From: Paenibacillus sp. UNC451MF
GTDB lineage: Bacteria > Bacillota > Bacilli > Paenibacillales > NBRC-103111
Length of the DNA: 64,000 nt
Direction: 5' to 3'
Assembly (NCBI RefSeq): GCF_000686845.1
Contig: NZ_JMLS01000002.1
Location: 1 to 64,000 of the forward strand
A model generated the notes under the pieces. That model saw only the letters and a list, made by a program, of their open reading frames with translations, had not been told where the DNA came from and did not search any database. Shown piece after piece: positions 7,859 to 14,508 of the stretch (its first letter is position 1; every line of letters starts with the position of its first letter). A program made the position numbers and the translations under genes.

Positions 7859-9175
7859 ATGATATTCGATGTTGTACAGTTCGGAGCCAAAGGGAACGGC
7901 ACCGAGCTCTCGCATGAAAACATACAAAAAGCGATGGACGCGTGCGCTGAAGCGGGCGGCGGAATGGTCTATGTTCCGGCAGGCACTTACTTATGCGGCA
8001 CGCTTCACCTAAGGTCCAATGTAAACCTGCATCTGGAGCAAGGGGCAGTCATTCTCGGAGCGGATGATGAAGAGCTCTATCCTGAAATTTGCAAAACGCC
8101 CTACGGCAATCTGCCCGGGCAAATTCAGGCGCTGCTTTGGGCTGACAATGTTTCGAACGTGACGATTACGGGTCAAGGCATCATTGACGGAGGGGGTAAC
8201 TCGCCGCTAGCCCCGAAGGATGCGGTTCACGTTCGGTTCCGGCCGGCGCTGGTCTTTTACCGCAATTGCGAAAAAGTCAAATTTTTGGACGTTACGCTGC
8301 AGTATTCCTGCTTTTGGACGCTTCATTTGCTGCGCTGCAGCGATGTTCTCATCCACGGAGTAACCATCTTGGCACATCAGGATCGGACCAATACGGACGG
8401 GATTGACCCGGACGGCTGCCGCAATGTCATTATCAGCGACTGTCATATTAAGACCGGGGATGACTGCATCGTAATCAAGAGCACTGAGGGTGACACATGC
8501 GAGAATACGACGATTACGAATTGTATCCTAAGCTCAAGACACGCAGCCTTAAAGCTAGGTACCGAGGCCATCGGAGCGATTCGCAATATAACGTTCAACA
8601 ACTGCATTATCGACCATACCAATGTAGCGCTAGCTCTCTACATGAAGGACGGAAGCGCCTATGAAAATATTATTTTCAGCAACATGGTCGTCGAAGCCTA
8701 TAATGAATTCCCGATCATCATAGACGTGACACCACGTTACTACAAAGAGCCCACGATCGGAAAAATCCGCAGTATCACATTTGATAATATTATCGTAACC
8801 GGAAAAGGCAGGCTGTATATCGAAGGTACCAAGGATGTGCCGGTATCCGATATATCACTTCGCAACATGACTTGGAACATTACCGGTAAGTGTAAGGCAG
8901 ACAATATCAAGAAGCCGGACGGGGCACGCCGGATCGAAATGGACCCGAACCGGGCCAATTATGCTGTAAATCCGTATCAATTGATCGCCGTACATGTAGA
9001 CGGACTTCTCGTCAGCAATTGGAAGGTGTTTAACCGAAGCGGCGAAATTTTGTGTGACCGCGGGCAGTTTTATTTGCAATCGGTTGATCACCTTACCCTG
9101 GAAAACATCCGGCATCCGAAAATCGCGTCCGGACTCGAACCGGTGAAGCTGATTGACTGTATTATGCAAGAATAG
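7859..9175 (+). CDS. Glycoside hydrolase family 28 (polygalacturonase-like), cytoplasmic
   Basis: 438 residues with a right-handed parallel beta-helix fold. It opens with FDVVQFGAKGNGTELSHENI, the usual GH28/pectate-lyase-like N-terminus, and has NTDGIDPDG and GDDCIVIKS, which carry the catalytic aspartates. The third GH28 motif (GHG) is replaced by SRHAA, as in exo-acting or atypical members. There is no signal peptide, so it probably cleaves oligogalacturonides after import. ATG at 7859 follows AAGGGA; an upstream in-frame ATG at 7835 has no site. It is the third gene of the AraC-controlled operon. Confidence 0.88.
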   Translation: MIFDVVQFGAKGNGTELSHENIQKAMDACAEAGGGMVYVPAGTYLCGTLHLRSNVNLHLEQGAVILGADDEELYPEICKTPYGNLPGQIQALLWADNVSNVTITGQGIIDGGGNSPLAPKDAVHVRFRPALVFYRNCEKVKFLDVTLQYSCFWTLHLLRCSDVLIHGVTILAHQDRTNTDGIDPDGCRNVIISDCHIKTGDDCIVIKSTEGDTCENTTITNCILSSRHAALKLGTEAIGAIRNITFNNCIIDHTNVALALYMKDGSAYENIIFSNMVVEAYNEFPIIIDVTPRYYKEPTIGKIRSITFDNIIVTGKGRLYIEGTKDVPVSDISLRNMTWNITGKCKADNIKKPDGARRIEMDPNRANYAVNPYQLIAVHVDGLLVSNWKVFNRSGEILCDRGQFYLQSVDHLTLENIRHPKIASGLEPVKLIDCIMQE

Positions 9176-9253
9176 GCTTCATATCGCAGCCCTCTCATTC
9201 AGACCTTGGCAATGGAAAGGCCGTATTCTTTTTCCAACAATTGACCGAAGACG

Positions 9254-9288
9254 GCAAACCACCCGCAAATCAAATGTGGGTGGTTTGC
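9254..9288. terminator. Strong hairpin after GH28 gene
   Basis: GCAAACCACCC (9254-9264) pairs with GGGTGGTTTGC (9278-9288), an 11-bp stem with a 13-base loop. It can end the pectin operon on the plus strand and also overlaps the 3' end of the small minus-strand reading frame at 9270-9374. The U-run is weak on both sides. Confidence 0.6.
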
Positions 9289-9374
9289 TTATCGGCCATC
9301 TCGGGCATATTCAGCGAGTTAGCTGGGTCAACATAATCCATTTTAATGGCATCCGTTTGGTGTTCCATTGTCAT
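9270..9374 (-). CDS. Possible small protein, 34 residues
   Basis: ATG at 9374 has GAGGTGA five bases upstream and opens a 34-codon frame ending inside the 9254-9288 hairpin. The peptide is polar and Met-rich (MTMEHQTDAIKMDYVDP at the start), has no membrane segment, and matches nothing I recognise. The strong ribosome site is the main argument that it is real. It would end at the same hairpin as the convergent GH28 operon. Confidence 0.45.
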   Translation of the reverse strand: MTMEHQTDAIKMDYVDPANSLNMPEMADKQTTHI

Positions 9375-9490
9375 AACAGTCACCTCAATTCAAGCAAAGC
9401 GTATTGTATTTTAATTCAATAAAGCATGATATCTGTATAATGAGTAAAATAAAAAGCAGCCCCTGGTAAAGGTGAATGAGTAATTTATTT

Positions 9491-10057
9491 TCAAAACGTA
9501 CTAAGCCGTAGTTCATAAAAATACTGCACAATTGGATGCTTTAACTTCATCTTCTCGGTCATATTTAAAATTCGCTTTTTTCCAACTCGTCTGTCCACCA
9601 AAGCTAGAATATTCAATAAGATATCATTGCTCTCTATGCTTTCCTCTATAGAAATGGATAAAAACTTATTAGCTATAACGATAAAATCTGATTTGCTTAA
9701 TGATGACTGTGCCGACAAAAGCTCCTTTGCATATTCTGATTTTTTTCTACTTCTTGCAATTACTACTAGACGATCCTCCGGAACGATCCCCTTGGTATCT
9801 TTTCTGACTACTTCAATTTCTTCATCGTTGATAGGAATTTGGATATCTGAATCATTCTTAATTTCCAGCTCCGTCTGATACCATCTGATTAAGCTTGTAT
9901 CACTCATATTAAATACGTTCTTTTTATCTACTGCAATATAACAATGCCCTGCTTTATCGGGTAAATAACGGTAGCTCGTTGCACGGTATTCGACCCTTCC
10001 ATTTAACGCAGGACAGAGAAAACTCTCCAGATTTTGTTTCAATTTGCTCCAGGTCAT
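9491..10057 (-). CDS. SF0329-family conserved protein, function unknown
   Basis: 188 residues. The sequence NLESFLCPALNGRVEYRATS followed by RYLPDKAGHCYIAVDKKNV is what I know from annotated SF0329-family proteins, scattered in Bacillus-type genomes, with no proven function. No signal peptide or membrane segment, and no recognisable catalytic motif. ATG has AGGAG six bases upstream. It stands alone among gene remnants in an accessory region, so it is probably acquired. Immunity or toxin-related roles are possible but unsupported. Confidence 0.7.
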   Translation of the reverse strand: MTWSKLKQNLESFLCPALNGRVEYRATSYRYLPDKAGHCYIAVDKKNVFNMSDTSLIRWYQTELEIKNDSDIQIPINDEEIEVVRKDTKGIVPEDRLVVIARSRKKSEYAKELLSAQSSLSKSDFIVIANKFLSISIEESIESNDILLNILALVDRRVGKKRILNMTEKMKLKHPIVQYFYELRLSTF

Positions 10058-10112
10058 GTACTACTCCTTGTTCTATATTAATAACTACCTAATGAGGCAG
10101 TTGTCCCATTAC

Positions 10113-10229
10113 TCATAATACTATAACCAGCACCCCATTCTCTATGTTCCAATGAAAATAACTCCACCGCTGAGGGGAAAGCTCAACATAATGCTTGCTA
10201 TCAACGTGGTTACCCTTCAACACTTTGTC
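10113..10229 (-). pseudogene. Possible gene tail, 38 codons, no start
   Basis: On the minus strand a stop-free stretch reads LSPQRWSYFHWNIENGVLV near its end and closes at a TGA at 10113-10115. It looks like the C-terminus of a protein whose start has been lost (an in-frame stop lies just upstream). I do not recognise the family. Together with the neighbouring kinase fragment it suggests a graveyard of decayed genes between 10058 and 10432. Confidence 0.25.
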
Positions 10230-10278
10230 CTATTCTGGTGTCGTAAATAAATTCAACTTCTTTCATTTTAACTACTAA

Positions 10279-10413
10279 CTATTCGATATCCCAAAATCGC
10301 GGTCCACAATTCATCGAATTCAGGTCAAAAATGACCATCTCCCCATTCGTATTAAATCCAATATTGCCTTTATGAAAATCATCATGGATGAGACCAAAAT
10401 TAAGGCTTTTAGG
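10279..10413 (-). pseudogene. Aminoglycoside-phosphotransferase-like kinase fragment
   Basis: Too short to be a gene: 44 codons on the minus strand read NFGLIHDDFHKGNIGFNTNG, then VIFDLNSMNCGPRFWDIE and a stop. These are the catalytic HxDxxxxN loop and the following metal-binding D of APH/choline-kinase-like phosphotransferases. The N-terminal 200 or so residues and the C-terminal lobe are missing; an in-frame stop sits at 10414-10416. Clear remnant of a deleted gene. Confidence 0.7.
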
Positions 10414-10432
10414 TTAATGCTTTAAGCAATGA

Positions 10433-11302
10433 TCAGTCGCCAAACACCGACAAGTCGATCTGGCGTATGCGTATAGGGTCGGAAATCAAGTCTACCTCGG
10501 CGATCTTTCCGCTCCTTATTGTAAATTTGAGCACATAGAGCAATCTTCCACGAGGAGCCGCAATGACTCCTACTGATCCGTCCACAATGGCTGATTGCGC
10601 AGCCTGTGCACGTCCCGAAACTTGTTCGGCCAGTGCTCTCGCGCCTCGTGTTACCCTTGAGACTCCTGTCTGACGATCGTCTCGCAGCACAACGTCAGGA
10701 TCGAGCGCCGCCACCAGCGTATCGAAATCGCCGGCGTATGCCGCTGCAAGGAAAGCGTCGACAAGTTCGCGTTGACGAGCAAGATCGGCTTCTGGCATTG
10801 CCCCCGCCCCGTGCACACGTTGGCGTGCCCGGCTAGCAAGTTGTCTGGCTGCGATCTCGGACCTTCCTACAATGGGGGCAATTTCGGTGAAAGGCATAGC
10901 GAATATGTCATGTAAAATGAACGTGATGCGTTCTGAAGGATTCAGTTTGCTGAGCACGACTAGCAGCGCAAGACCGACAGAATCAGCCAATATGGCTTCT
11001 TGTTCGGGGTCACTTCTATCCTCAAGACTAGCAACCGTTTCGGATAAATACGTTTCGATCGATTCCTCTCTTCTTGATTTTCGTGACCGCAACATATCGA
11101 GGCACACTCGCGAGACAACAGTGGTTAGCCATCCCCCCAGGTTCTCGATAACGCTCGTATCCGTACGGCTAAGACGTAGCCAAGACTCCTGTACAGCGTC
11201 CTCCGCTTCACTCAATGATCCAAGCATTCGATAAGCCACCGCCTGCAGGTGATTCCGATGCGCTTCGAATTTCCTCACCAACCAATCATGTTCGCTCATC
11301 AT
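10433..11302 (-). CDS. SnoaL-type ECF sigma factor (ECF41/SigJ-like)
   Basis: 289 residues. Sigma region 2 (AYRMLGSLSEAEDAVQESWLRL) spans residues 15-85, region 4 about 110-170, and a SnoaL-like NTF2 domain about 175-285 takes the place of a separate anti-sigma factor. The usual ECF41 C-terminal motifs are changed: DDRQTG where DGGGR is expected and SDPIR where NPDKV is expected. Its promoter region carries TGTCACA-N16-CGTC, the ECF41 target, so autoregulation is likely. Start is ATG at 11302 or the next ATG at 11299, after AAGGAAG. Base composition is visibly richer in G+C than that of the neighbours, suggesting transfer. Confidence 0.9.
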   Translation of the reverse strand: MMSEHDWLVRKFEAHRNHLQAVAYRMLGSLSEAEDAVQESWLRLSRTDTSVIENLGGWLTTVVSRVCLDMLRSRKSRREESIETYLSETVASLEDRSDPEQEAILADSVGLALLVVLSKLNPSERITFILHDIFAMPFTEIAPIVGRSEIAARQLASRARQRVHGAGAMPEADLARQRELVDAFLAAAYAGDFDTLVAALDPDVVLRDDRQTGVSRVTRGARALAEQVSGRAQAAQSAIVDGSVGVIAAPRGRLLYVLKFTIRSGKIAEVDLISDPIRIRQIDLSVFGD

Positions 11303-11343
11303 TCAACTTCCTTCTTAAAATAAAATTAGTCTCTATAAGTAAT

Positions 11344-11370
11344 GACGAACGAAATCCAGTCAATGTGACA
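11344..11370 (-). promoter_or_regulatory. ECF41-type promoter of the sigma gene
   Basis: On the minus strand TGTCACA (11364-11370) and CGTC (11344-11347) are exactly 16 bases apart, the published ECF41 pattern. It lies about 40 bases before the sigma factor start, so the factor probably activates its own gene. Confidence 0.8.
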
Positions 11371-11412
11371 AGATGCTAAAGATTCGTTATTTCCCCGCTT
11401 CTCTTGCATACC

Positions 11413-11439
11413 AGTCACATACCCGAGATTCGATCCGTC
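11413..11439 (+). promoter_or_regulatory. ECF41-type promoter facing azoR
   Basis: AGTCACA (11413-11419) and CGTC (11436-11439) are again exactly 16 bases apart, one base from the perfect -35. It points to the right, toward an AGGAG at 11482-11486, an ATG-TAA at 11496-11501, a hairpin, and then azoR at 11655. ECF41 factors usually drive a carboxymuconolactone-decarboxylase/oxidoreductase gene at this place. Confidence 0.75.
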
Positions 11440-11481
11440 AATGTAGTGAAGGGGGAATATTGGGCTTCGATCAAAAAATGA

Positions 11482-11501
11482 AGGAGTGTTTCACTATGTA
11501 A
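11482..11501 (+). pseudogene. Ribosome site and start codon without a gene (ATG followed by TAA)
   Basis: AGGAG at 11482-11486 is nine bases before ATG at 11496, and the next codon is TAA. This is where the sigma factor's usual partner gene would begin. The simplest reading is that the partner gene was deleted right after its start codon; a start-stop regulatory element is the alternative. Confidence 0.5.
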
Positions 11502-11524
11502 TCAAACGTTCAGAAAAAACAGAC

Positions 11525-11578
11525 GCCCCTGAGCCGGACGCTATTCCATGCCTATCTTCAGGCTAGGCCGGCTGGGGC
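11525..11578 (+). terminator. Hairpin between the lost gene and azoR
   Basis: GCCCC-TG-AGCCGG (11525-11537) pairs with CCGGCTGGGGC (11568-11578), leaving a two-base bulge and a 30-base loop. There is no U-run. It may be the old terminator of the deleted gene or a leader structure of azoR. Confidence 0.45.
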
Positions 11579-11654
11579 AATAATATTCGGCGCTTTCTCC
11601 CTTCCAAACTTTTTTGCTATTCAACAAAAAAAATTGAAAGTAGGTAAGTTAATT

Positions 11655-12296
11655 ATGGCAACAGTATTATATATAACAGCAAATCCGAACGATCATGAAA
11701 AATCTTATAGCCTGGCAGTAGGTAAAGAATTTATACAGGTTTACCGCTCCGCAAATCCGTATGATGAAATTATTCATCTGGATCTGTATAAAATGGATAT
11801 TCCGCAGCTTGATGCCGATGTTTTTAGTGGTTGGGGCAAGCTCGGTGCAGGCACTGTTTTTGAACAATTGACCAATGCAGAGAAAGCGAAAGTAAGTCGT
11901 CTCAGTGAACTGGTGGATCAATTTGCTGCTGCAGATAAATATGTATTTGTAACACCGATATGGAATTTTTCATATCCGCCCGTTATGAAAGCATACATCG
12001 ACTCCGTTTGCGTTGCAGGCAAAACTTTCCGATATCTTCCAGATATAGGTCCGGTAGGCTTATTAGGTGATAAAAAAGCCGTTCACATTCAAGCTAGCGG
12101 AAGCGTTTTGTCTTCAGGTTCACCTTATGCAAACTCTGAAATGGGTCATCGCCACCTGGGTGCCATTATGAAGTTCTTAGGGATACTTAGCTTTGAAGGA
12201 ATTTTTGTTGAAGGTATTGCCGCGACTCCTGACCAAGCACCAGCGATTAAAGAAAATGCGGTTCTACGTGCGCACGAAGTTGCCCAGAGCTTCTAA
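11655..12296 (+). CDS. azoR: FMN-dependent NADH-azoreductase
   Basis: 213 residues, the usual AzoR length. Flavodoxin-like fold with the N-terminal phosphate-loop strand [20 protein letters not shown], the [18 protein letters not shown] segment before the FMN-binding loop, and [20 protein letters not shown] near the C-terminus. It reduces azo dyes and quinones by two electrons using NADH and protects against thiol-reactive quinones; cytoplasmic homodimer. ATG at 11655 is chosen by alignment with the family; an in-frame TTG at 11634 would add seven residues. It may be read from the ECF41-type promoter at 11413. Confidence 0.92.
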
Positions 12297-12323
12297 CGAC
12301 TCTACAATTCTATAAAAATAGCC

Positions 12324-12356
12324 GCAGCCGGAACATGATTCCCATGTACCGGCTGC
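12324..12356 (+). terminator. azoR terminator-like hairpin
   Basis: GCAGCCGG, then ACATG, mirrored by CATGT and CCGGCTGC, form a 13-bp stem with single-base bulges and a 5-base loop, 28 bases after the azoR stop. No U-run follows. Confidence 0.6.
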
Positions 12357-12370
12357 ATCGGTTCTGTATA

Positions 12371-12395
12371 AGCAGACCGCCCCGGGCAGTCTGCT
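12371..12395. repeat. GC-rich hairpin downstream of azoR
   Basis: AGCAGAC-C-GCCC pairs with GGGC-A-GTCTGCT around a single C. It is the second of three hairpins in a row between azoR and the THEP1 gene. Confidence 0.5.
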
Positions 12396-12397
12396 CA

Positions 12398-12425
12398 ATT
12401 AAACTATCGTACCCGATAGTTTAAT
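12398..12425. promoter_or_regulatory. Orphan 12-bp operator-like palindrome
   Basis: ATTAAACTATCG and CGATAGTTTAAT are perfect mirror arms around TACC. The core ACTATCG-N4-CGATAGT looks like a TetR- or MarR-type operator, but it lies between two convergent genes with no promoter in view. A regulator gene that once stood here may have been lost. Confidence 0.45.
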
Positions 12426-12524
12426 TTCATTGCTGATTAATCTATAGTTGAAAAGTTACGGTACAAAAGTAAAATAGTTATTATTTGCTAAAAAAGAACT
12501 CCAATATTACAATTAAGTGCCAGT

Positions 12525-13142
12525 CTATCTTGTTTTAATACGGTCAAACTTATGATTATGCCTATAATCTCTGAAAAGAATCCTATAAAACCAGGAAGAA
12601 TAATGGTGCTCACAAAAGAGAAAGTAGCTAAAATTTATTCGTTCTGTTATCACCTCACGATTCTCTTCACTCAGATGATAAGGTATTATCCCAGATAGTT
12701 CCTTTATTTTATCAATGCTCGGATGGCTGTCCACACAAATTGTCCCTAAAATAATATGTTTAGAACTTGAAATTACTTCATGGATCATTGTTTCAAATGG
12801 AGCGGATAACATTTGCATGAAGCCGATCTCATCAATAACTGTAATCTTCTTTGTATTTAACGATAAGTTCACTGCCTTTAAAGCAATATTTTCAAAAGCA
12901 TCTATATCAATCCCGTATCTCCCTACTCGAACTGAACTTTCACTATCAACACTTGCAATGCATACAGTCTCGCCTTTAAGTGTGATGCAATTAAATCCAG
13001 TACGATTTGTGGAATTGCGTATTTCTTCAGTGTAAAAACCACCAAAATATTCAGGACCAATTTGTTGAATAATTCGCTTTATCGCTTTTGATTTTCCTAC
13101 TCGAGGTTTCCCGGTTAACAAGAAACATGTTTCCACCCTCAT
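12525..13142 (-). CDS. THEP1-family nucleoside-triphosphatase
   Basis: 205 residues. Walker A is LLTGKPRVGKSKAI at residues 8-20, Walker B is ITVIDEIGFMQM near residue 100, followed by a sensor-like LGTI. This is the NTPase THEP1 family (COG1618), P-loop enzymes that hydrolyse ATP and GTP with unknown cellular role, related to cancer-related NTPases. The last 40 residues (after HLSEENREVITERI) extend beyond the usual core and are rich in aromatic and basic residues. ATG at 13142 or GTG at 13145 follow GGGAGA. Low G+C and an isolated position suggest acquisition. Confidence 0.82.
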   Translation of the reverse strand: MRVETCFLLTGKPRVGKSKAIKRIIQQIGPEYFGGFYTEEIRNSTNRTGFNCITLKGETVCIASVDSESSVRVGRYGIDIDAFENIALKAVNLSLNTKKITVIDEIGFMQMLSAPFETMIHEVISSSKHIILGTICVDSHPSIDKIKELSGIIPYHLSEENREVITERINFSYFLFCEHHYSSWFYRILFRDYRHNHKFDRIKTR

Positions 13143-13330
13143 CACTCTCCCTGTATCTAAATAAAAAAAGCATTCGTTAAATGGCTAAATTATCCTGCCA
13201 GTTAGTTGAGAAAAGGTAACCGACACTAAGCCAGCTATTTTTACAGAGTACTAAATTGAGCTATCATACCCATTCGTTGAATACACGAAAATTGGATGAA
13301 GTGGGTTGTTTTTGAAATAGTTATTTATGA

Positions 13331-13336
13331 TACAAT
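13331..13336 (+). promoter_or_regulatory. cat promoter -10 box
   Basis: TACAAT, 31 bases before the leader peptide ATG. TTGTTT at 13306-13311 is a possible -35, though 19 bases away. Confidence 0.45.
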
Positions 13337-13367
13337 AATATTGACTCTTTAAAAAGGATTGGATCTA

Positions 13368-13397
13368 ATGAAGAAAGCAGACAAGTCAGCCTCCTAA
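13368..13397 (+). CDS. cat leader peptide (9 residues)
   Basis: MKKADKSAS, preceded by AAAGGATTGG, is of the same kind as the leader peptides MVKTDKISSS of cat-86 and MKKSEDYSS of pC194. A ribosome stalled on it by chloramphenicol opens the downstream hairpin. It is too short to be listed by gene finders. Confidence 0.9.
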   Translation: MKKADKSAS

Positions 13398-13424
13398 ATT
13401 CACTTTAGACAAAAATTTAGGAGG
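13390..13424 (+). promoter_or_regulatory. cat translation attenuator hairpin
   Basis: CCTCCTAAATT (13390-13400) pairs perfectly with AATTTAGGAGG (13414-13424). The 3' arm contains the AGGAGG ribosome site of cat, so the gene is silent until a drug-stalled ribosome on the leader peptide melts the stem. Confidence 0.92.
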
Positions 13425-13432
13425 CATATCAA

Positions 13433-14083
13433 ATGAACTTTAATAAAATTGATTTTGACAATTGGAAGAGAAAAGAGATATTTAATCATTATTTGAACCA
13501 ACATACGACTTTTAGCATAACCACAGAAATTGATATTAGTGTTTTATATCGAATCATAAAACAAAAAGAATATAAATTTTATCCTGCATTTATTTTCTTA
13601 ATGACAAGTGTGATAAACTCAAATACAGCTTTTAGAACTGGTTACAATAGTGAGGGAGATTTAGGTTATTGGGATAAGCTAGTCCCACTTTATACGATTT
13701 TTGATAGTGTATCTGAATCATTCTCTGGTATTTGGACTACTGGAAAGAATGATTTCAAAGAGTTTTATGGTTTTTATCTTTCTGATGTAGAAAACTATAA
13801 TGGTTCGGGGAAATTGTTTCCCAAAACACCTATACCAGAAAATACTTTTTCTATTTCTATTATCCCATGGACTTCATTTACTGGATTTAACTTAAATATC
13901 AATAATAACAGTAATTATCTTCTGCCTATTATTACAGCAGGAAAATTCATTAATAAAGGTAATTCAATATACTTACCGTTATCTTTACAAGTCCATCACT
14001 CTGTTTGTGATGGTTATCATGCAGGATTGTTTATGAACTCTGTTCAGGAATTGGCAGATAGGCCTATTGGTTGGATTTTATAA
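13433..14083 (+). CDS. cat: Chloramphenicol O-acetyltransferase, type A (inducible)
   Basis: 216 residues, typical length. The active-site stretch is LQVHHSVCDGYHAG with the catalytic His; DFDNWKRKEIFNHYLNQ at the N-terminus and GDLGYWDKLVPLYTIFD are family landmarks. The enzyme acetylates chloramphenicol with acetyl-CoA as a cytoplasmic trimer. It sits behind a full attenuator (leader peptide plus hairpin) of the Gram-positive cat-86 / pC194 type. Strongly A+T-rich relative to the flanking core genes and bordered by remnants, so it is probably acquired. All parts needed for inducible resistance look intact. Confidence 0.95.
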   Translation: MNFNKIDFDNWKRKEIFNHYLNQHTTFSITTEIDISVLYRIIKQKEYKFYPAFIFLMTSVINSNTAFRTGYNSEGDLGYWDKLVPLYTIFDSVSESFSGIWTTGKNDFKEFYGFYLSDVENYNGSGKLFPKTPIPENTFSISIIPWTSFTGFNLNINNNSNYLLPIITAGKFINKGNSIYLPLSLQVHHSVCDGYHAGLFMNSVQELADRPIGWIL

Positions 14084-14100
14084 ATTTTATAATAATAGAC

Positions 14101-14131
14101 AAAACCGACTGTACTTTTTACAGTCGGTTTT
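14101..14131 (+). terminator. cat terminator
   Basis: AAAACCGACTGTA and TACAGTCGGTTTT form a 13-bp perfect stem with a 5-base loop, ending in a T-run. It lies 18 bases after the cat stop and can work in both directions. Confidence 0.9.
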
Positions 14132-14139
14132 CTAATGTC

Positions 14140-14345
14140 ACTAAACTGCCTGTTCGTATAATGAAGTCACCAGATCTTTCTGGTCGACCTCTATTTTGTA
14201 CGGTCGTAAGATAGCGGTTAGCCGGGGATCGAACGTTTCTGCCTGTGGGATTTGGATCTCGAGAGCTATTCAGTTCATCCCCCCACTTGTTTAACCATGG
14301 TTAGGCTACTCGGGACATGAATCCCCTATACCTTAAAGACGATAG
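14140..14345. other. Unexplained structured non-coding block beside cat
   Basis: About 200 bases without a credible gene but with many small symmetric elements: ACCAG-ATCTTT-CTGGT at 14169-14184, a CTCGAG and an AACCATGGTT palindrome, runs of C on one side and G on the other, and GGGA...TCCC around 14310-14330. It looks like DNA specifying a folded RNA or a mobile-element end. A leader region of an IS110-type element, which encodes a guide RNA next to its recombinase gene, is one possibility; the cat unit would then have replaced the recombinase. I cannot prove any of this. From 14345 to 14480 the sequence is simply A+T-rich and I see nothing in it. Confidence 0.35.
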
Positions 14346-14485
14346 CCGTTTTTATAATAACTTTATTATTTTTAGTTCTTAAAACGACAAGTTATAATCA
14401 ATTTTTAAATTCTTTTTTTAAAGCTGAACGATAACTGTGCCATAACACTATCATTTCAATTATATTTACTCAGAATATAAAGAAA

Positions 14486-14508
14486 GCCCGTTCCATCAAG
14501 GAACGAGC
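14486..14508 (-). terminator. Terminator-like hairpin
   Basis: On the minus strand GCTCGTTCC pairs with GGAACGGGC (one G-U pair) and is followed by TTTCTTT. It is the second hairpin after nrdJ and may back up its terminator, or be left from a lost gene. Confidence 0.6.

Follow-up and report, generated by a model that had tools for sequence, protein, structure and literature searches.

What does an ECF41-type promoter serve when the start codon behind it is followed at once by a stop codon? This question is raised by a locus in Paenibacillus sp. UNC451MF, lying in the 64,000 nt of contig NZ_JMLS01000002.1 (positions 1 to 64,000) that we analysed as a whole and call the window. Comparative analysis makes it highly probable that the locus is a divergent ECF41-like unit in which a gene of the carboxymuconolactone decarboxylase (CMD) family has decayed and whose promoter now serves the azoreductase gene azoR. 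The relevant features are as follows.

10433 to 11302, minus strand: ECF41-like sigma factor gene with a C-terminal extension (P0001, 289 aa), from Pfam, NCBIfam and PDB comparisons
11344 to 11370, minus strand: ECF41-type promoter TGTCACA-N16-CGTC on the sigma side; exact motif, equivalent found in 48 of 48 loci
11413 to 11439, plus strand: target-side ECF41-type promoter AGTCACA-N16-CGTC; equivalent found in all 41 loci that have CMD, azoR or both
11482 to 11486, plus strand: AGGAG resembling a Shine-Dalgarno sequence, left from the lost CMD gene; two intact CMD genes have AGGAG at the aligned position
11496 to 11566, plus strand: what is left of a CMD-family gene (its start codon with TAA as the next codon, and interior sequence at 11511-11566), from nhmmer, a coding-only profile and alignment
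11655 to 12296, plus strand: azoR, FMN-dependent NADH-azoreductase family (P0002, 213 aa), from Pfam Flavodoxin_2 and PDB 6jxs

Two Divergent ECF41-Type Promoters

A first-pass annotation of this DNA had reported the two promoter-like sites 42 bp apart, the AGGAG followed by ATG-TAA at 11496-11501, and the azoR ATG at 11655, and all of these are placed correctly. It also described the promoters as face to face. In fact they are divergent, back to back: the minus-strand site reads leftward and faces the sigma gene, and the plus-strand site reads rightward and faces azoR. The sigma gene is likely self-regulated through the site at 11344-11370. The target-side site departs from the consensus by one mismatch, an A as the first base of its -35 element.

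The exact pattern TGTCACA-N16-CGTC occurs once in the window against 0.01 expected. The genome-wide scan proposed in the first-pass annotation gave a divided answer, non-chance by place and without excess by number. Across the genome there are three exact matches against two for a reversed control, and five matches to the W form of the motif against five. Two of the three exact sites stand at ECF41-type sigma loci, namely the window and L065 (contig C3). L066, the third exact site, falls inside a long open frame, as does L067, the remaining site of the W form. A genome-wide regulon was rejected on these counts, which are no higher than those of the control.

A Remnant of a CMD Gene behind the Target-Side Promoter

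It had been suggested that an oxidoreductase partner was deleted right at its start codon. A partner was indeed once there and was lost close to its start, but interior sequence was left behind, and the gene was not an oxidoreductase: it belongs to the CMD family (the L011 copy matches PF02627 at E 7e-17). We searched with a DNA profile of 24 CMD genes and their leaders, in which L033 ends at its stop codon. In the window this profile matches the leader and start at 11429-11505 (E 7e-9) and, by nhmmer, 56 nt of interior at 11511-11566, corresponding to approximately codons 30-48 (E 3.1e-6). Alignment shows the same interior words in the window, in intact CMD genes, and in L002 (Paenibacillus sp. 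N3.4), the closest relative. The closest CMD copy elsewhere in the window genome is 42% identical, and a PF02627 search of that genome likewise gave no close copy.

The notion that no gene ever stood here, and that the Shine-Dalgarno sequence and ATG-TAA arose by chance, carries a negligible probability. The recognisable interior is short, just those 56 nt, but it is the best match of a coding-only profile on both strands of the 64 kb (E 8.1e-5; next match 0.044), and none of 2000 dinucleotide shuffles of 11501-11654 reaches its score. L002, moreover, holds a longer CMD remnant at the same place (E 3.5e-19) with more of the 5' end kept. A chance ATG was rejected on the alignment with L002 and the intact genes together with the coding-profile match.

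We extended the remnant search, from sigma start to azoR start, to 18 loci with azoR and no intact CMD. Coding remnant beyond the start codon was found in 11 of these; six gave a leader-only match and one gave no match. In L002, codon 2 of the remnant is TCA rather than TAA, and the TAA in the window therefore need not be the first lesion.

Could ATG-TAA instead be a working start-stop mini-frame, at which a ribosome held by the kept Shine-Dalgarno sequence protects or tunes the azoR message? Of the nine remnants that keep their start codon, five (L001, L003, L012, L019, and L016) run into a stop already at codon 2 or 3, and the window, L002, and L003 retain AGGAG; both observations speak for this explanation. 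The pattern was seen after the fact, however; L012 and L019 look like one event, and early codons are one step from stops. The first stop in L002 comes at codon 9, the frames of L098, L100, and L018 also stop later, and L009, L010, L015, and L023 have no mini-frame between leader and azoR. We regard a functional mini-frame as quite unlikely and read the sequence as the trace of a decayed CMD gene.

Two further observations concern the remnants themselves. A terminator-like hairpin with a T run lies inside the window's remnant at 11523-11541 on the minus strand, oriented toward the sigma gene (0.3 such elements expected by chance). In Paenibacillus mesophilus, a 199-bp MITE-like element whose ends are perfect inverted repeats of 16 bp separates the Shine-Dalgarno region of CMD from the CMD remnant (L007, 1102-1300; also recorded as L072 and L091), and one copy of its end sequence is also found in L039.

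Repeated Change of CMD and azoR among Relatives

Of 197 genomes searched with the sigma protein, 196 gave a match at E ≤ 0.001, mostly to distant sigma factors; 47 of the 104 family genomes had a match at E ≤ 1e-60. A first tree, a quick version, had 84 rows. All counts below come from a second tree built with a simpler model from the 47-row clade of the first, L002, and three outgroup rows. It was drawn without the 34 remaining first-tree rows and without L054, which has frameshifts in sigma and azoR and was used in the remnant search only; loci whose sigma match was incomplete, broken or distant (L055-L064, apart from the uses given here) were also left out.

The clade comprises 48 sigma loci, window included. 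Twelve have an open CMD frame and azoR, 11 an open CMD frame with no azoR nearby, and 17 azoR without an intact CMD; the remaining eight have neither an intact CMD nor azoR nearby. One of these eight, L033, carries a full-length CMD with a nonsense codon at codon 32, no azoR within 3.4 kb, and an exact target promoter. For the 19 loci called azoR-free (12 with a CMD-like frame and seven without), 3.4-5.7 kb were searched. In many close relatives the CMD frame is approximately 150-160 codons long and stands directly behind the plus-strand promoter, and in 12 relatives azoR follows the open frame by 5-102 nt.

A partner gene between the plus-strand promoter and azoR, as the first-pass annotation anticipated for related genomes, is thus found in 12 of the 48 loci, and the opposite outcome, that no relative has a gene there, did not materialise. 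The same annotation took a sigma factor left without its partner to be rare material. In this clade it is not rare, as the 17 and eight loci just described show, and the sigma factor in the window is not without a usual partner either: AzoR is a Flavodoxin_2 protein, a class listed among the oxidoreductase partners of ECF41 in PMC3426412.

On the best tree of the 48 sigma genes, the CMD state changes at least 13 times and the azoR state at least 10 times. Fifteen of the 48 inner forks are open, and the well-supported branches give six independent pairs that differ in CMD. When CMD loss was compared with azoR presence in independent pairs, the median p was 1, with too few informative pairs to reach 0.05.

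In L034, from the window's genus, an FMN_red flavin reductase (approximately 1790-2362) lies behind a similar divergent promoter pair with GGTCACA on both strands, a possible partner swap. L005 has CMD with no azoR behind it, and a second azoreductase relative, 38% identical, on the far side of the sigma gene (6-521).

azoR as the Likely Remaining Target

The azoR product matches Pfam Flavodoxin_2 (E 8.6e-43) and PDB azoreductase 6jxs (E 1.5e-89); this domain together with full-length similarity places it among the FMN-dependent NADH-azoreductases, and its score against NCBIfam PRK13556 is 170.3 bits, below the cut-off of 188. Downstream in the window are genes of the NTPase_1 family (12525-13145; PF03266, E 8.2e-38) and the chloramphenicol acetyltransferase family (13433-14083; PF00302, E 1.3e-72).

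In the 48 loci, window included, we counted promoter sites that lie no more than 190 nt from the sigma start and differ from the motif at one position at most; dinucleotide shuffles gave a site rate of 0.5% per strand. A sigma-side site is present in 48 of 48 loci and a target-side site in 41. The latter accompanies CMD plus azoR in 12 of 12 loci, CMD only in 12 of 12 (L033 counted), and azoR only in 17 of 17 (window included), and was found in none of the seven loci with neither gene, even within 600 nt. Since the target promoter is kept wherever CMD and/or azoR stays and is absent where neither remains, azoR is likely the remaining target of the plus-strand promoter.

This result agrees with an earlier proposal that azoR took the partner's place as target. 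As a late replacement, however, azoR was rejected, given that it is already the next gene, 5-102 nt behind CMD, in 12 loci. In L009, azoR starts approximately 60 nt behind the promoter with a Shine-Dalgarno sequence like that of CMD.

The seven loci without a target promoter (L036, L037, L041, L048, L049, L104, and L135) all keep an exact sigma-side promoter. They form one clade, and their lack of the target promoter therefore counts as one event; retention of the promoter after separate CMD losses is the stronger part of the argument. Six of these seven genomes together contain 12 exact sites (N16-17) against 15 reversed-control matches, and other targets in these six were rejected on that comparison. 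Six of the 12 sites are the sigma gene's own, and one (L160) neighbours a CMD relative and a further sigma relative; for the remaining five, the surrounding 3 kb gave no match to this sigma, CMD or azoR.

We propose that the sigma factor would read its own promoter leftward and the twin promoter rightward, where the operon would originally have comprised CMD and then azoR. In the window lineage, at least two deletions together with a premature stop (codon 2) would have reduced CMD to a fossil of approximately 70 nt, and the promoter would now make an azoR message with a long leader, approximately 209 nt if transcription starts near 11446. P0001 would use both sites, azoR would be transcribed from them, and the output would probably be quinone, azo or electrophile detoxification. 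A simple scan of 11290-11700 found no sigma-70-like promoter on the plus strand. An RNA element was rejected, as no Rfam family matched in 9000-14500. Folding of the leader RNA is slightly better than that of shuffled sequences (z -1.92; eight of 200 as good).

Several points count against this proposal: the off-consensus A in the -35 element, the reduction of the seven promoter-less loci to one event, the median p of 1 in the pair test, L033, where an exact target site persists although CMD is broken and azoR was not found nearby, and an in-frame stop in the sigma gene of L002. In a rival account, the site facing azoR would be a relic of a unit that is drifting toward loss now that CMD is gone, and azoR would rely on a different promoter. 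The sequence AGTCACA departs from consensus in L002 as well as in the window, and the stop in the sigma gene of L002 is a TAA at codon 189, leaving 188 residues; the unit may therefore be decaying in this nearest relative. Truncations of Ecf41Bli in the region matching the L002 stop change activity (PMC3426412). The stop may also be a sequencing error, as it lies on a low-coverage contig (3.1 kb, coverage 6.9). L064, from the window's genus, matched over sigma residues 210-289 and CMD codons 1-60 only, and one clade lacks both targets and the target promoter.

Drift of this kind sits poorly with a target promoter kept in all 17 azoR loci that lack an intact CMD, and an A at the start of the -35 element is also found in L027, where CMD is open, and in L132, where it is lost. 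Where neither member of a pair has CMD, sigma and azoR give dN/dS values of 0.12-0.33 (the sigma genes of L098-L100 excepted). Between the window and L002 the values are 0.28 for sigma and 0.33 for azoR, indicating by this measure that both genes are under purifying selection; the C-terminal part of sigma is more relaxed (0.45 vs 0.17). Overall, we consider a relic promoter improbable and favor continued service of azoR.

An ECF41-Like Sigma Factor and a CMD without CxxC

P0001 has Pfam Sigma70_r2 and Sigma70_r4 matches. It scores 247 bits against the NCBIfam SigJ model, below the cut-off of 271, and matches PDB 5xe7 SigJ at E 7.2e-51 over residues 9-249, a similarity that reaches into the extension. 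Three features agree with ECF41: the sigma2-sigma4 core with a C-terminal extension of approximately 100 residues, TGTCACA-N16(±1)-CGTC before the sigma and/or partner gene (with the one mismatch on the target side), and a genomic link to a CMD, oxidoreductase or epimerase gene, here azoR as a Flavodoxin_2 protein.

The protein motifs tell otherwise. The published description of ECF41 factors includes WLPEP in the linker and conserved motifs at the C terminus (PMC3426412), and in their compact state the NPDKL end is linked to a YVGPWLPEP linker (PMC7730460). P0001 has TYLSETVA in place of WLPEP, and SDPIRI and RDDRQT at the places of the conserved C-terminal motifs. String searches found WLPEP, NPDK, and DGGG in none of the 48 clade proteins (L002 only up to its stop, for NPDK and DGGG); LPE is kept in eight. 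P0001 gave no Pfam match to SnoaL at E 0.001; other SnoaL-bearing groups are ECF56, ECF205, ECF294, and ECF295 (PMC8999054). Because ECF41 promoters and context are present but WLPEP, DGGG, and NPDK are absent, P0001 is best called ECF41-like from its sequence, the groups compared being ECF41 and SigJ. By promoter and context, it should work like ECF41.

The partner departs from the canonical system as well. In PMC3426412, all ECF41-linked CMD (AhpD-like) proteins are stated to contain CxxC. In all 24 CMD genes of the clade, L033 among them, D replaces the first cysteine (NGDSVCVELH or a variant of it), and L022 is missing the second cysteine too. CxxC is kept in four of four CMD proteins near out-of-clade sigma relatives (Chloroflexota, Armatimonadota, and Dormiibacterota records) and in two CMD genes elsewhere in the window genome (L162 and L163).

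Comparison with Known Systems

According to Wecke et al. (2012, PMC3426412), the ECF41 motif is TGTCACA-n16-CGTC, with adjoining partner genes as the only targets detected; 55 of 373 ECF41 loci are divergent, the motif preceding 36 sigma and 41 partner genes. Our locus resembles these divergent loci (<ECF< >COE>) in its sigma factor with C-terminal extension, in carrying the motif before both divergent genes, and in having CMD or a Flavodoxin_2 oxidoreductase as partner. It differs from those described there in that two partners share one operon and CMD has been lost repeatedly, in a sigma clade without WLPEP, DGGG, and NPDK, and in a CMD with D-x-x-C instead of CxxC. AzoR1 of Staphylococcus aureus, likewise named as an azoreductase/quinone reductase, is under MarR-type repressors (PMC12893000), whereas the likely regulator here is an ECF41-like sigma factor. 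Searches of open-licence papers listed neither a study of an ECF41 factor with an azoreductase nor one of this sigma clade.

Wecke et al. report that no role of the partner enzyme in ECF41 signalling was found, and they leave the signal unknown. In this clade, CMD has been removed several times in nature while the sigma gene, the promoter pair, and azoR stayed. This agrees with a role of CMD as output and not as sensor component, and related strains that differ in CMD are material for testing these two roles. A wider interpretation, which we put forward tentatively and with some doubt, is that an ECF41-like branch has lost the compact-state motifs, that its CMD lost the first cysteine and was then discarded many times, and that the azoreductase was left as sole output, perhaps rewiring a one-component sigma switch to flavin-dependent quinone/azo detoxification.

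The same genome holds a second ECF41 locus, L065, where the motif is directly followed by a flavin oxidoreductase gene (Amino_oxidase) and then by a canonical ECF41 gene. L065 shares with the window the promoter motif and an oxidoreductase partner, but its partner lies upstream in the same direction as sigma. Its sigma factor, unlike P0001, has YVGPWLPEP, DGGGK, and NPDKL, together with a weak SnoaL_2 match.
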